A DNA stretch of 64,000 nucleotides from Desulfobacca sp. (GTDB lineage: Bacteria > Desulfobacterota > Desulfobaccia > Desulfobaccales > Desulfobaccaceae): the NCBI GenBank assembly GCA_020725545.1, contig DYEV01000024.1, positions 1-64,000 of the forward strand, written 5' to 3'. The notes below the pieces were generated by a model, which saw only the letters and a program-made list of their open reading frames with translations, did no database searches and had not been told where the DNA came from. Made by a program: the position numbers and the translations under genes. The number at the start of each line of letters is the position of its first letter. The stretch's first letter is position 1. Below, in pieces: positions 44,753-52,551 of this stretch.

Positions 44753-46099
44753 ATGAAGCTAAAAATGCTGCGAGTTGTCTTTGCCAAGTTGCGGTTCACC
44801 CGGCGGTGGACCCTCGTCGGCCTGGTGTTTCTGCTGGTGCTCGGCTTTTTCGTCAGGGTAGCGCCTGCGCCTGCGGTTTCCTCCCAGGCATACGCGCAAC
44901 TACGTCTCCTGGTGGAAGCCCTGTATGAGATCGATAATAAGTATGTGACCGAAAAGAAGGAGCGCGACCTGATTTATGGGGCCATCCGGGGTCTGGTGGC
45001 GTCCTTGGATGCCAATTCTTCCTTCCTCACCCCCGCCGAATATCAGGAATCACAGAGCAAGACGGCGCCGGCCGAAGCGGATGCGGGCCTGGAGCTGTCC
45101 GTCAAGGATAATCTGCTCACCGTTATTGCCTCGTTGGAGGGCGGACCCGCCTGGCAGGCCGGCATCCGAGCCGACGATCACATCCTCAAGATCAATAATC
45201 AATCCACCCGGGCCATGACGGCCTTGGAGGCCGCCAAAAAGTTGCAGGGCCCGCCTGGCACCAAGGTCAAATTGCAGTTAATCCGCACCGGTCTGGCCAA
45301 ACCGCTGGATCTGGAAGTAACCTTGGAACGCCCTGCCGTGGAAAGCGTCAGCCACTATCCTCTGGAAGACGGTTTCCATTATATCCGCCTGCGCAATTTC
45401 AAAGAACGGTCTGCCCAGGAACTCCAGCAGGCCCTGCGCGCCAGCCAAAGTGGAACGACACCCCCCCGAGGGATTATCCTCGATCTGCGCAACACCGCTG
45501 GCCCGCAGTTTGAGGAGGCCAGACGCCTGGCCTCTACCTTTGTAGGTAATGAGCCGATTTATACGGTCAAGGGTCGCCAGAACGGGAATAAACAGACTTT
45601 TACCGGCCTGAAAGAATATCAGGTTCTCAAAGAGAGAGTGCCTCTGGTGGTGCTGGTGGATCAGGGCACGGGGCGGGCTGCTGAAATTCTGGCCGGGGCG
45701 CTGCAGGCCCAATATGGCGCGGTCCTCATGGGCTACAAGACCTTTGGTGATTGCGCCGTCTCCAAAGTTTTCCCGTTAAAAGACGGTTCGGCCATCATTG
45801 TCAGCGTCGGTTATTGCTATACCCCCCGAGAACAGCTGATCCAGGGTAAAGGGTTGGAACCTGACATCTCGGGCCCCAACAAAGACGGTGAAGAGCAACC
45901 GGTGGCCACGCCCCCCAAACCGGAGAAATCCAAAAAGATCCCAGATGTCCAGGAAGTTCGCCAGGATCCCTTAGTCGTCCAAGCCCTCAATAAATTGAAA
46001 AATTGGGGCCGCCAGGGTGCTTCCCAGCAGCAGCTGCCCCGCACCCTGAAAAAAAAGCAGGTGGCCGGTTCCCAGGGTTTACCAGAAGAACTCTCTTAG
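44753..46099 (+). CDS. S41 peptidase homolog without catalytic residues
   Basis: 448 residues: N-terminal helix (LVGLVFLLVLGFFVRVAP), PDZ domain (about 110-190; AGIRADDHILKINNQST), S41 core and an extra C-terminal tail. In the core, the active Ser of GSASASE is replaced (GTGRAAE), the Lys of TFGKGSVQ by Asp (TFGDCAVS) and the Gln by Ser. All three residues of the Ser-Lys-Gln triad are gone, while the fold and PDZ stay. It is likely a regulatory pseudoprotease or scaffold for the intact paralog that follows 33 bases later. Confidence 0.85.
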   Translation: MKLKMLRVVFAKLRFTRRWTLVGLVFLLVLGFFVRVAPAPAVSSQAYAQLRLLVEALYEIDNKYVTEKKERDLIYGAIRGLVASLDANSSFLTPAEYQESQSKTAPAEADAGLELSVKDNLLTVIASLEGGPAWQAGIRADDHILKINNQSTRAMTALEAAKKLQGPPGTKVKLQLIRTGLAKPLDLEVTLERPAVESVSHYPLEDGFHYIRLRNFKERSAQELQQALRASQSGTTPPRGIILDLRNTAGPQFEEARRLASTFVGNEPIYTVKGRQNGNKQTFTGLKEYQVLKERVPLVVLVDQGTGRAAEILAGALQAQYGAVLMGYKTFGDCAVSKVFPLKDGSAIIVSVGYCYTPREQLIQGKGLEPDISGPNKDGEEQPVATPPKPEKSKKIPDVQEVRQDPLVVQALNKLKNWGRQGASQQQLPRTLKKKQVAGSQGLPEELS

Positions 46100-46132
46100 T
46101 CGATACCCCAGCAATCTGAGGAAAAAGCCAGT

Positions 46133-47467
46133 ATGAATATGAATTATCCAACAACCACGGAGAGTCCCAGGGTGCCCGTGTTAAGGCGGGGTTATGCTGT
46201 CCTCAGTCTGCTGCTCGGGCTGCTCCTGGTTTTATCCGCCACTGCCACACCTGCCTTCCCCCTGACGGAAGAGAGCCGGGAAAATCTGGCGGTCTTTGCC
46301 GAAGCCCTGGGCATTGTGGAAGACAACTATGTGGAGCCCCGAGATATCAAAAAACTCATCTATGGAGCTATTCGAGGCATGGTGAGCAGCCTGGATTCCC
46401 ATTCTGCCTTCATGGCTCCGGAAGAGTTTAAAGAACTGCAGATCGAAACCAAAGGCAGTTTTAGCGGCATCGGTATCGAGATCACCCTCAAAGATAACCT
46501 CCTCATCGTCGTCTCGCCCATTGAAGGGACCCCGGCCTATCGGGCCGGCTTGCAGGCCGGCGATCGGATCATCAAGATCGACGGTCAGAGTACGAAGAAG
46601 ATGAGCCTGCTGGATGCGGTGCGCAAGATCCGGGGAGCCAAAGGCTCCGCCGTCACTTTAACCATCATGCGGGAGAATGTGGATAAACCCAAGACCTTTA
46701 CCCTGGTCCGGGAAATTATCCCCATCCGCAGCGTGCGGGTGCGGCATTTTGACGACGGCATCGGCTACATCCGCATTACCAACTTTCAGGATAAAACCGA
46801 TCATGATCTGCAACAGGCGATAAAAGACCTCAACACGAAATTCAAACCACTCCGGGGCTTGATATTAGATTTGCGCAACGATCCCGGCGGCTTATTAGAT
46901 CAGGCCATTAAGGTGGCCGATGAATTCCTCACCTCCGGCCTCATCGTCTATACCGAAGGCCGGAATAAGGCCCAGACCAACCGGTTCTATGCCCAAGACA
47001 GTGGCAGTGAACTAGAAAAAAGCATCCCCTTGGTCATCTTGATTAATGAGGGCAGCGCCTCAGCCTCCGAGATTGTGGCCGGAGCCATGCAGGACCGCAA
47101 ACGGGCCACCCTCGTGGGGACCAAAACCTTTGGCAAGGGCTCGGTCCAGAGCATCGTCCCCCTGGAGGATGGTTCCGCCCTGCGTCTGACGACCGCTTAT
47201 TACTATACCCCCTCCGGCCGAGTGATCAATGAGAAGGGCATTCAACCCGATCTGTTGGTGGAGATGCCGGCCATCCCAGAAGGCAAAACCGTCAAAGACC
47301 TGCGTCAGGAAGCCTTGGAACGGCGCATGAAAGGTGAAGATCTGGCGGATAAAGCCTGGACGGTCCCCATCTCTGCTGCGGAACTGGAAAAGGACCCACA
47401 ATTGGCCCGGGCCCTGCAAGTGCTGCGCCAGGGAATGGCGGCCAAGACCTCGGAGGCCAAGCGCTAA
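46133..47467 (+). CDS. S41 C-terminal processing peptidase (active)
   Basis: 444 residues: signal/anchor (YAVLSLLLGLLLVLSATATP), PDZ (about 95-170; AGLQAGDRIIKIDGQSTKKM) and S41 core with GSASASEIVAGAMQD (catalytic Ser) and KTFGKGSVQSIVPL (Lys, Gln). It cleaves C-termini of periplasmic proteins. In tandem with its dead paralog, probably cotranscribed, and followed by a strong terminator. Confidence 0.94.
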   Translation: MNMNYPTTTESPRVPVLRRGYAVLSLLLGLLLVLSATATPAFPLTEESRENLAVFAEALGIVEDNYVEPRDIKKLIYGAIRGMVSSLDSHSAFMAPEEFKELQIETKGSFSGIGIEITLKDNLLIVVSPIEGTPAYRAGLQAGDRIIKIDGQSTKKMSLLDAVRKIRGAKGSAVTLTIMRENVDKPKTFTLVREIIPIRSVRVRHFDDGIGYIRITNFQDKTDHDLQQAIKDLNTKFKPLRGLILDLRNDPGGLLDQAIKVADEFLTSGLIVYTEGRNKAQTNRFYAQDSGSELEKSIPLVILINEGSASASEIVAGAMQDRKRATLVGTKTFGKGSVQSIVPLEDGSALRLTTAYYYTPSGRVINEKGIQPDLLVEMPAIPEGKTVKDLRQEALERRMKGEDLADKAWTVPISAAELEKDPQLARALQVLRQGMAAKTSEAKR

Positions 47468-47682: not shown

Positions 47683-49053
47683 ATGCAGAAGCCGACGCCA
47701 CCCTTCGTGGCCCTCATTGGCCGCACCAATGTGGGGAAGTCCACCCTTTTCAACCGCCTCACCCGGCAGTCCCGGGCCTTGGTGGACGATCAACCCGGCG
47801 TGACCAGGGATCGTCTTTACAGTCCCGTCACCTGGCAAGACCGTTCTTTTATCCTCATTGATACTGGCGGCTTCGGGGGTGCGAACGATGGACTCAGCCG
47901 GGAAGTGCGTCGTCAGGCCGAGACCGCGGCAGCCGAAGCCGACCTTATCCTTTTCCTGGTGGACGCGACCCGGGACATCCAAGCCGACGATCTGGACGTG
48001 GCCGAATTCCTGCGCCGGGCCGGGAAACCGGTCCTGCTGGTCGTCAACAAAGTGGACGGCCCCAAACAAGAGGCCCTGATCCCGAGCTTTTATCAACTCG
48101 GTTTCAGCCCCCTCTATCCCGTGTCCGCAGCCCATGGCCTGGGCGTCGAAACCCTGTTGGAGGCCATCGCCAGCCATCTGCCCCCAGCAGCTGAGGCCGA
48201 GGCACTGCCGACGGGGCTGCGGGTGGCGGTCCTGGGCCGGCCCAATGTGGGGAAGTCTTCTTTTATTAATCGGGTTCTGGGCCAGGAACGGCTGTTGGTC
48301 AGCGACACCCCCGGCACCACCCGAGATGCGGTGGAGACCCCCCTGCTGTGGGAAGGACGCCCTTATGTCCTCATCGATACCGCGGGCATCCGCCGGCGCA
48401 GCCGCGTCCAGGCGGACCTGGAACGGGGTATGGTCTGGCAGGCCCTGCGGGCCTTGGAGCGGGCCGAGGTAGTGCTGTTCCTGGTGGACATTTCTGAAGG
48501 ACTGACGGAGCAGGATCTGCGGATTTTAGGTCTGGTGGCCCAAGCCGGCAAGGGCTGCCTCATTGGGTTGAACAAGTGGGACTTACTCAAAGGTTCGGAA
48601 AAAGAGAAACAACATACGTTAGATTGGCTGCGCACTAACTTGCGCGTGATGCCCTATGCGCCGTTGTTGCCGTTGTCGGTGGCCACCGGCTATCAGGTGG
48701 CCAAAGTCTTTCCCCTGATTGAGAAGATTGCCGCACAATGGCAATTCCGAGCCGGGACCGGGGAATTGAATCGCCTCTTTACGGAAATTGTCAACGCCCA
48801 GCCGCCCCCGCGCTTTCGCCACCGCAGCGTCAAGTTTTACTACATTACCCAAGCCGGGACCCGGCCGCCCACCTTTATCATCTTCACCAACATCCCGGGG
48901 GCGGTGCCGGAATCATACCGGCGCTACCTGAGCAATCAGCTGCGGGAGCGTTTGGACCTGCCGTATGCAGCCATCCGGCTGCATTTTAAGGGCAAAGAAC
49001 GCCGCCGCGGTCGAACCGGTGGCGGCGCGACCTCACCTTCGGGCCGTCTCTGA
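47683..49053 (+). CDS. der: ribosome biogenesis GTPase Der (EngA)
   Basis: 456 residues with two GTPase domains in tandem: GRTNVGKSTLFNRL / DTGGFGG / NKVDGP, and GRPNVGKSSFINRVLGQ / DTAGIRR / NKWDLL, then a KH-like C-terminal domain. It binds and matures the 50S subunit. The ATG at 47683 (MQKPTPPFVALIG) fits the family; ATGs at 47626 and 47635 are possible but add residues that align with nothing. Confidence 0.95.
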   Translation: MQKPTPPFVALIGRTNVGKSTLFNRLTRQSRALVDDQPGVTRDRLYSPVTWQDRSFILIDTGGFGGANDGLSREVRRQAETAAAEADLILFLVDATRDIQADDLDVAEFLRRAGKPVLLVVNKVDGPKQEALIPSFYQLGFSPLYPVSAAHGLGVETLLEAIASHLPPAAEAEALPTGLRVAVLGRPNVGKSSFINRVLGQERLLVSDTPGTTRDAVETPLLWEGRPYVLIDTAGIRRRSRVQADLERGMVWQALRALERAEVVLFLVDISEGLTEQDLRILGLVAQAGKGCLIGLNKWDLLKGSEKEKQHTLDWLRTNLRVMPYAPLLPLSVATGYQVAKVFPLIEKIAAQWQFRAGTGELNRLFTEIVNAQPPPRFRHRSVKFYYITQAGTRPPTFIIFTNIPGAVPESYRRYLSNQLRERLDLPYAAIRLHFKGKERRRGRTGGGATSPSGRL

Positions 49054-49073: not shown

Positions 49074-49343
49074 TTACTTAACTACGCGTAATTTGCGTTG
49101 GGTGCGGGAGCCGTCCGATTGACGAAAACGGAGTAGGTTCTTCCGGTGTGATTGGGCGTGCAGGAGATTATTTTTGACCCGGATCCCACTAATCAAAAAA
49201 AAGGCGATGACGGCTTTTTCCCATTCCGGGGTGGGATGAAAATCTTCCATGATTTCCTTGTAGTGGGTTAATTGACTCGCCAGATCTTTTTCGTCCAGGG
49301 ATAAAATCTGTGCGGCCAGCTCTTCTACCGTTTTTTGAATCAT
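49074..49343 (-). CDS. conserved-looking small protein, function unknown
   Basis: 89 residues, charged and helical (MIQKTVEELAAQILSLDEKD, SQLTHYKEIMEDFHPTPEWE) with one hydrophobic stretch (AVIAFFLISGIRVKNN) and a basic tail. GGGAGG lies ten bases before the ATG. Convergent with der. No family recognised. Confidence 0.6.
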   Translation of the reverse strand: MIQKTVEELAAQILSLDEKDLASQLTHYKEIMEDFHPTPEWEKAVIAFFLISGIRVKNNLLHAQSHRKNLLRFRQSDGSRTQRKLRVVK

Positions 49344-49492: not shown

Positions 49493-50233
49493 TTAAAAAA
49501 TGTCCGAATCCGTAAAATTTTCCAGATGTTGGATGACCGTCAGAAGTCCGTTCACTTCATATTCAAGAATCTTCAAGCCCTGCGCGGCCGTAGCCGGCCC
49601 GGGATCCCCCCAGACGCCTCCAGGCCAATAGCGCCGTTTCTGCCGGGTCAGGATATATTTGGGAAAAGCCGGCCACTCCGCCGGGGCGGTGCCCTGGACC
49701 AGTTCCGGCCGGATGGCCAGGACAATGGCGGTTTCCACTTCGCCGGCATGGGCGTCCCCGGGAGTCTGAATAAGGGTGGGGTCCTGGCGCAGGGCCTCCC
49801 GGAGGAGATCCAGGACATTGACTACGGCTACTTTGATGTCGGGAAAGTCTTGCAAGAGCTGTTCCCCAGCCTCAATGAGGGCGGCCACATGGGTGCCGCC
49901 GGCATGGCCCGTGAGAAAAATAATGTGGCGGCAGCCCATGCGGTAGAGGGAAGTGGCCACATCCCGGGCCAGCAGTCGGACCGCCGCGGCCGAGATGCTG
50001 ATGGTGCCGGGATGGTCACTGGTGGAGCGGCAGAGGCCATACGGGAGCGGCGGCGCCACCAGAACCGCCCGGCGCGCCGCGACCCGTTCGGCCACCTCCT
50101 GGGCGTGAAGCAGGTCAGTGTTCAAGGGCAGGTGCGGACCGTGCTCCTCCACTGAACCACAAGGGATGAGCACAGTCTGGGTCTGCTGCAACGCCGCTTC
50201 CACCTGCGGCATGGTCATGGTTGCCAGCAACAT
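49493..50233 (-). CDS. creatininase family protein
   Basis: 246 residues: LIPCGSVEEHGPHLPLNTD carries the metal-binding Glu/His/Asp, with HIIFLTGHAGGTH and DAHAGEVETAI later. Family members hydrolyse cyclic amides or act in cofactor maturation (MftE, ArfB-type); the substrate here is unknown. GAGGAG precedes the ATG by seven bases. Divergent or cotranscribed genes do not fix its role. Confidence 0.9.
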   Translation of the reverse strand: MLLATMTMPQVEAALQQTQTVLIPCGSVEEHGPHLPLNTDLLHAQEVAERVAARRAVLVAPPLPYGLCRSTSDHPGTISISAAAVRLLARDVATSLYRMGCRHIIFLTGHAGGTHVAALIEAGEQLLQDFPDIKVAVVNVLDLLREALRQDPTLIQTPGDAHAGEVETAIVLAIRPELVQGTAPAEWPAFPKYILTRQKRRYWPGGVWGDPGPATAAQGLKILEYEVNGLLTVIQHLENFTDSDIF

Positions 50234-51381: not shown

Positions 51382-52434
51382 ATGCAATCCGAAGACCGTC
51401 AGCCGTTAATGGAGCAGGTGCGGGCCGCGGGTTGAGCTGCCAAGATTCCTCCCGGTGAATTGGAGGAAATTCTGGCGGCCCTGCCCCGGCAGCAGCATCC
51501 CGATCTGTTGGTGGGCATGGAAACCGCCGACGATGCCGGAGTGTATCGTCTTAGCAGTGAGATAGCCCTCATCCAGACGGTGGATTTTTTCACGCCCATC
51601 GTCAATGATCCCTATCTGTTCGGGCAGATCGCCGCGGCCAATGCCCTGAGCGACGTCTATGCCATGGGCGGCCGGCCCTTAACGGCCATGAACATCCTTT
51701 GTGTTTCCCTGAAAATGGTCGCCAAGGAGGACCTGGCGGCCATCTTGCGGGGCGGGATCGACAAGATTCATGAAGCGGGCGCCCTGTTGGTGGGCGGACA
51801 CAGCGTCGAGGACCAGGAATTGAAATATGGCCTGTCCGTTACCGGCATCGTCCATCCGGACCGCATCCTGACCAATGCCGGCGCGCAGGTCGGGGACAGT
51901 CTGATTTTGACCAAACCGCTGGGGACGGGGGTTCTGGCCACAGCCAGCAAAGGCCGGTTGGCCTCGCCGGCGGTGGAACAGCAGGCGGCTGATCTCATGC
52001 GCACCTTGAACCGGATTCCCGACGATGTTTTGGCCAGCGGCACGATCCATGCGGCCACCGATATTACCGGTTTCGGCTTTTTGGGCCATGCCCTGGAGAT
52101 GGCCAAGGGCTCCCAAGTCGTGCTGACCGTGTTCGCCTCTCAGGTGCCGGTGCTGGCCGCGGCCCTGGAATTCGCCGCCATGGGCTTGATCCCGGCCGGC
52201 AGCTTCGCCAATCGCCGTTTCTGCGAGCACCACCTCCAGGTCTCCTCCGGAGTGAAGCCGCTCCTCCTGGATCTCCTGAGCGATACCCAGACCAACGGCG
52301 GTCTCCTCCTGGCCGTAGCCCCGGCTGCCGCTCCCCATATCGTCCGCCGCTTTCAGGAAGAAGGGCTGGCGGCCACCGCCATCGTCGGCGCAGTGACCGC
52401 ACCGGGGCCGGGGGTCATCCGGGTGGAGCCGTAG
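51382..52434 (+). CDS. selD: selenide, water dikinase (selenoprotein SelD)
   Basis: 350 residues including selenocysteine at codon 18 (TGA 51433-51435; context AAG-U-AAKIPP). SelD makes selenophosphate from selenide and ATP. GTGGAG is six bases before ATG 51382, which lies upstream of the in-frame TGA, so ORF finders start too late. Motifs after the Sec: GMETADDAGVYRLS, NALSDVYAMGG, VGGHSVEDQELKYGL. A SECIS-like stem follows the TGA and tRNA-Sec lies at 44133. First gene of a selenium-type cluster. Confidence 0.93.
51446..51468 (+). promoter_or_regulatory. SECIS element in selD
   Basis: TTCCTCC (51446-51452) and GGAGGAA (51462-51468) form a 7-bp stem with loop CGGTGAATT containing GGU. The stem begins ten bases after the UGA. 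Size, distance and loop GGU match bacterial SECIS hairpins read by SelB. Confidence 0.78.
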
Positions 52435-52551
52435 GAGAGTGGTCAGTTCTCAGTGACCAGTGGTCAGAAGAATTTTTTCAGCCCACCACTCCTGGCCTGG
52501 GTTGAGACCTTTAAACTTTGACCTCATACCTTATGTTAGGGGGGAGTGAGT

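Follow-up and report, generated by a model that had tools for sequence, protein, structure and literature searches.

Members of the Desulfobaccales carry two S41 genes in tandem, the first encoding a catalytically dead protein and the second an intact CtpA-type protease. We found the dead state to be real, old, and conserved, with purifying selection acting on the dead gene. We give about even chances to the reading that the dead protein serves as a dedicated CtpA subunit, always in the resting state, that would pair with the live CtpA.

A dead S41 protein precedes an intact CtpA-type protease

The pair lies in the window, the whole 64,000-nucleotide stretch of Desulfobacca sp. DNA that was analyzed. 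The dead, CtpA-like gene (44753–46099, + strand; 448 aa) was defined from its open reading frame, Pfam, and AlphaFold, and the live gene (46133–47467, + strand; 444 aa, S310/K335/Q339) from its open reading frame, Pfam, and TIGR00225. Both reading frames are complete, and 33 bases lie between them, placing an intact paralogue where an earlier note on this DNA had seen one. In each protein, a PDZ domain and a Peptidase_S41 core follow a hydrophobic stretch at the N terminus; the full layout of the dead protein is an N-terminal signal/anchor helix, an N-terminal dimerization region, the PDZ domain, the cap/core, and a C-terminal helix. PDZ families matched both proteins, and the PF03572 (Peptidase_S41) scores were 116.6 bits for the dead and 201.8 bits for the live protein, with a cut-off (gathering score) of 24. 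With TIGR00225 (S41 C-terminal processing protease), the live protein reached 353.5 bits, above the 218.6-bit cut-off, and the dead protein 200.2 bits, below it. No other S41 domains were found in the whole genome (2.94 Mb, 99.96% complete).

Catalytic positions of the dead protein were assigned by alignment to the live protein (S310, K335, Q339). Around the catalytic Ser, encoded by TCA in the live gene (47060–47062, + strand), the dead protein reads VDQGTGRAAE and the live protein INEGSASASE. In the dead gene, also on the + strand, the Ser is replaced by Arg308 (CGG, 45674–45676), the Lys by Asp333 (GAT, 45749–45751), and the Gln by Ser337 (TCC, 45761–45763). The earlier note had likewise reported all three residues as lost, describing the first change as a "Ser to Arg/Ala region"; the exact change is Ser to Arg.

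The dead state is conserved and maintained by selection

To find orthologues, we used the S41 model and the dead protein as queries against 79 related genomes. The class referred to here is Desulfobaccales, Desulfobacca acetoxidans included. All three catalytic residues were missing in 27 of 27 class orthologues of the dead protein. The former Ser is Arg in 26 of them and Gln in one; the Lys position holds Leu (20), Asp (four), Asn (two), or Glu (one), and the Gln position Thr (20), His (three), Ser (two), Val (one), or Asn (one). All 22 full-length live partners were intact, and S-K-Q was present wherever the region had been assembled. The earlier note had regarded intact residues in close orthologues as the mark of a recent loss; among the 79 genomes, none of the 27 orthologues was intact. 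With 27 independent orthologues dead, recent loss and sequencing error were both rejected. Two class members (G018 and G028) were without the pair. Their assemblies were also without the essential neighbor der, so we rejected a loss of the pair in these genomes and attribute its absence to a locus missing from the assemblies.

The reading frame of the dead gene was open in all 27 genomes. Its pairwise dN/dS, estimated for twelve pairs by two methods, was 0.05–0.42, somewhat above that of the live gene. The dead state is therefore both common to the orthologues and kept by selection, as in a conserved pseudoprotease. Together with the constant tandem order, this upholds the conservation that the earlier note had proposed to check by alignment.

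Gene order around the pair

The usual gene order in the class is transketolase N, transketolase C, dead S41, live S41, and der, which encodes the Der (EngA) GTPase and lies at 47683–49053 (+ strand) of the window. The dead gene came before the live gene in all cases, with 4-base ATGA overlaps in seven genomes, and the tandem position was retained in 23 of the 24 genomes where it could be judged. The same arrangement recurred in independent assemblies across the class, which rules out chance or an assembly artifact. The one exception was G024 (locus L080), where the two S41 genes are 1.85 kb apart; a methyltransferase-like gene and further sequence lie between them (L080 1551–3400). A promoter scan 5′ of the pair gave no + strand sigma-70-like site before either gene.

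On the 3′ side of der, most class members carry a creatininase-family gene (window 49493–50233, − strand). A small conserved gene with no assigned function (family F6; window 49074–49343 region, − strand) also follows der, and the member of this family at locus L065 had no Pfam match. Further along the window, SelD (selenophosphate synthetase; 51382–52434, + strand) is apparently a selenoprotein, with an in-frame TGA at 51433–51435 in the motif AAGUAAK, and a YedE-like transporter gene starts after it at 52546.

The dimerization region is the least divergent part of the dead protein

The hydrophobic positions that build the CtpA N-terminal dimer have been described (PMC8764530). Using these positions, we located the interface of the dead protein at L50, L53, I74, I78, L81, V82, and L85, within an N-terminal dimerization region of residues 46–97 (44888–45043, + strand). 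The equivalents of Pseudomonas aeruginosa L46, L70, I74, M77, L78, and L81 were hydrophobic in nearly all dead orthologues, and the F49 equivalent was L, I, A, Y, or F. The C-terminal helix (residues 399–416; 45947–46000, + strand) lies inside the C-terminal dimerization region and is preceded by the motile loop. At the position of P. aeruginosa Leu426, a zipper position of this helix, the window's dead protein apparently has Lys414.

In 22 matched genomes, the dead/live divergence ratio was 1.03 for the N-terminal dimerization region, 1.09 for the C-terminal helix, 1.52 for the PDZ domain, and 1.90 for the core, and it differed between the dimerization regions and the core (Mann–Whitney p = 4e-5), although the ratio partly reflects the live N-terminal region being itself variable. 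The dimerization region was the least divergent part of the dead protein and among the most divergent parts of the live protein.

Switch residues and the active site are remodeled

In the CtpA of P. aeruginosa and Helicobacter pylori, the active state is permitted or stabilized by His84/85, Phe104/105, Arg161/162 (Arg168 in CtpB), and a motile-loop Glu (PMC12749690, PMC11021448), and the F105R substitution locks the H. pylori CtpA hexamer in the resting state (PMC12749690). In the window's dead protein, the active-site His (P. aeruginosa His84) is replaced by Asn88 (45014–45016, + strand), and this His is gone in 27/27 orthologues. The PDZ-hinge Phe (H. pylori Phe105, P. aeruginosa Phe104) is replaced by Glu108 (45074–45076, + strand) and is non-aromatic in 27/27. 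The PDZ sensor Arg (H. pylori Arg162, P. aeruginosa Arg161, CtpB Arg168) is replaced by Gln165 (45245–45247, + strand); this position is Gln in 25 of the 27 and Arg in two. The motile, trans-interacting loop is short in the window's dead protein, and its conserved Glu is absent from every dead orthologue (27/27). In the oxyanion region, Ala249-Gly250 (45497–45502, + strand) takes the place of Pro-Gly in the DLRN(D/N)PGG loop, the Pro being changed to Ala in 27/27 and the following Gly to Arg in 19/27. The live proteins retain all switch residues and the oxyanion-loop Pro/Gly, with the motile-loop Glu present in 21 of 22. Because the loss extends past the catalytic triad to the residues of the conformational switch, a permanently resting subunit is the more specific reading of the dead protein.

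The dead clade has also acquired invariant residues of its own: A249, S261, D303, and T306. Asp303, which is Asn in the live protein, was invariant in 27/27 and lies near the near-invariant Arg308 (residues 303–308, window 45659–45676). An Asp303–Arg308 salt bridge could possibly fill the former active site.

Predicted structures resemble resting and active subunits

AlphaFold models of the two proteins had mean pLDDT values of 84.6 (dead) and 86.0 (live). The best match of the dead model was P. aeruginosa CtpA (8sxe_B; VIA Z 39.6, rmsd 2.6 over 359 residues). This CtpA-like model, together with a PF03572 score over the gathering score and the PDZ matches, supports the earlier claim that the dead protein keeps its PDZ domain and fold. 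The dead model resembled chain B of the CtpA–LbcA complexes (Z 38–39.6), which would be the resting chain, and 9ku0_D, from the all-resting F105R form of H. pylori CtpA (Z 39.3). Compared with CtpB, it matched the resting form (4c2e, Z 36.0) better than the active form (4c2c, Z 24.5). The live model gave the opposite pattern with CtpB (active 4c2c, Z 32.9; resting 4c2e, Z 23.9), and it matched the active chains 9jr1_B (Z 37.5) and 8sxg_A (Z 36.0) and chain A of the CtpA–LbcA complexes (Z 35–36). These models, one prediction per protein, are suggestive of a dead copy in the resting and a live copy in the active conformation.

Distribution and origin

When 247 genomes of the phylum were searched with a dead-protein profile, class members scored at least 612 bits and all others at most 385 bits, the level of ordinary CtpA. 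Within this phylum sample, the pseudoprotease is restricted to the class. In a tree built without acidobacterial rows, the dead and live class proteins grouped against all other CtpA (support 92/87), and the dead and live groups were each divided alike by the class's two families. These data are best read as a single duplication before the two families split, although the dead clade's long branch leaves this less than certain.

Dead S41 proteins of Acidobacteriota form a second clade and stand alone; they were present at 35 loci (L090, L091, L098, L100, L104, L110, L124, L129, L134, L138, and others), and no second S41 was found within these loci. Here, Ser is changed to Gly (35/35), Lys mostly to Asp, His to Asn (34/35), the hinge Phe to Lys (30/35), and the oxyanion-loop Pro to Ala (26/35). 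Catalytic loss in this clade appears to be independent. Unlike the Desulfobaccales pair, the acidobacterial proteins have no live S41 adjoining and usually keep the Gln. The first tree, which included the acidobacterial rows, placed the dead class copy with them (86% SH-aLRT). However, a larger tree in which the dead and live Desulfobaccales copies were held together had a higher likelihood (+29.8) and was not rejected (p-AU 0.82). We therefore set aside a shared origin; the grouping is unsure on these trees and may be due to long-branch attraction.

Elsewhere in the phylum, several members have ctpA behind ftsE-ftsX-envC, and for 29 of the 31 FtsX domains detected an S41 gene was no more than about 3 kb away. 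The FtsX extracellular domain (PF18075) was detected in 0 of 29 class genomes (G000–G028) and in 31 of 50 other phylum genomes. The FtsX module was thus lost where the dead CtpA was gained, a coincidence that counts as one evolutionary event at most, and we make no causal claim from it.

A permanently resting subunit as the proposed role

The CtpA hexamers of P. aeruginosa and H. pylori are trimers of dimers, and each N-terminal dimer has one active subunit, its identical partner being at rest (PMC11021448, PMC12749690). We propose that a tandem duplication of ctpA in the class ancestor yielded two genes, one for a live protease and one for a copy locked in the resting, inactive state. This copy has lost the Ser-Lys-Gln triad, the oxyanion-loop Pro, and the residues needed for PDZ swing and activation, and has retained the N-terminal helices with which CtpA subunits dimerize. 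The dead and live proteins could then pair through these helices as a heterodimer, of which the dead copy would be the permanently resting half. In such a dimer, the dead partner may hold, shield, or present the substrate and determine how active the live subunit is, and the live copy would cut. We infer the complex, its stoichiometry, an activating or restraining effect of the dead partner, and the substrates, which are perhaps cell-wall hydrolases, as with other CtpA. Regulation of the live protease by the dead protein is plausible, since the dimerization region is kept, some genomes have the two genes overlapping, and the sole S41 partner is encoded alongside. That the half-of-sites asymmetry has been made genetic, with an active S41 subunit and a permanently resting one forming an obligate heteromer throughout the class, is a bolder claim, which we advance tentatively and consider somewhat more doubtful than not.

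Some observations count against a resting subunit, namely the loss of the motile loop, the apparent Lys414 at the zipper position, and the 1.85 kb gap in G024. In P. aeruginosa, the motile loop and the Glu entering the active subunit are supplied by the inactive subunit of the neighboring dimer (PMC11021448). As the dead protein has neither, the published hexamer is not simply transferable to the pair, and a mixed assembly would have to differ from it, for example through live–live contacts via the C-terminal helices.

Other roles for the dead protein were weighed against this one. It could act alone, as a periplasmic peptide or ligand binder or a chaperone in the manner of IRBP, next to a neighbor that is merely its parent gene. 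Non-catalytic reuse of the S41 fold is known (IRBP/RBP3 chains matched the dead model at VIA Z 14.9–18.6), the acidobacterial clade stands without a live S41 alongside, and the new invariant pocket residues suggest retooling. However, the tandem position is nearly constant, and it is the dimerization region, not the pocket, that diverges least; we consider this reading unlikely. We rate as rather improbable a negative regulator or decoy whose PDZ domain would bind the same C-terminal peptides, or which would poison the live protease in mixed dimers. Retention of the PDZ domain and the N-terminal dimerization region suits such a role, as does the loss of the switch residues, with which a mixed dimer could stay resting. 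Yet the dead gene is constantly co-expressed ahead of the live one, with translational coupling in several genomes, so that inhibition would be permanent unless some other signal lifted it; a simple peptide decoy is also at odds with the loss of the peptide-sensing Phe and Arg.

New chemistry in the former active site seems very improbable. Most orthologues have a Cys after the position of the lost Lys (G-L-C-G, G-D-C-A) that might serve, but this Cys is Gly in the three f1/g2 genomes and hence not universal, the oxyanion loop is altered too, and an invariant alternative nucleophile–base pair was not recognized. Scarcely credible is a decaying pseudogene from a recent duplication. The missing catalytic residues and a core whose amino-acid divergence is about twice that of the live gene would fit decay, but the protein was already dead before the families of the class split, its frame has stayed open throughout, and its dN/dS is well below 1; the conserved orthologues refute it.

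Relation to known systems

The closest parallels to a permanently resting partner are the CtpA proteases of P. aeruginosa (with LbcA) and H. pylori, which have the same domain order and fold and are closely related to the live protein (336 bits). Their N-terminal dimers, with one active and one resting subunit, show the state proposed for the pair; the difference is that both subunits come from one gene, whereas here a second gene encodes an inactive copy without the motile loop. CtpB of Bacillus subtilis shares the PDZ-gated fold and N-terminal dimerization, and its resting and active crystal forms served as the yardstick for our models. However, it forms a homodimer whose two subunits can both be active, with no dead paralogue as partner. 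IRBP/RBP3, a vertebrate ligand carrier without a PDZ domain, is also a non-catalytic S41 fold, but its structural match was far weaker (Z <19). Bacterial pseudoproteases also include Csp proteins, which belong to the subtilisin family. In Clostridioides difficile, the Csp pseudoproteases (CspC, and CspA with CspB) signal to or through a protease system (PMC12880746); they act in spore germination and not with an envelope CTP. The ClpP/ClpR complexes of cyanobacteria and plastids likewise combine a protease with catalytically inactive paralogous subunits (PMC7966870, PMC6508832), but they form an unrelated ATP-dependent protease, and co-assembly is proven there and inferred for the S41 pair.

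In the open-access literature, we found no paper linking a pseudoprotease with CtpA or a pseudoenzyme with a tail-specific protease, and no S41 pseudoprotease partner; within that literature, the pair is undescribed, as the earlier note had supposed. The kind of arrangement is known, inactive paralogues occurring in protease complexes such as those with ClpR, while the protein family involved, its fixation across a whole class, and the connection with half-of-sites activation of CtpA appear to be new.

In a CtpA hexamer built from the product of one gene, the resting and active roles cannot be told apart by experiment, which has kept it an open question why just half of the subunits become active. 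If the Desulfobaccales pair is a heteromer, these roles are split into two genes, each of which can be mutated and tested alone. The dead protein would then be, to our knowledge, the first S41 pseudoprotease partner, and it would represent a third route for the control of envelope proteases, beside adaptor lipoproteins and substrate binding.
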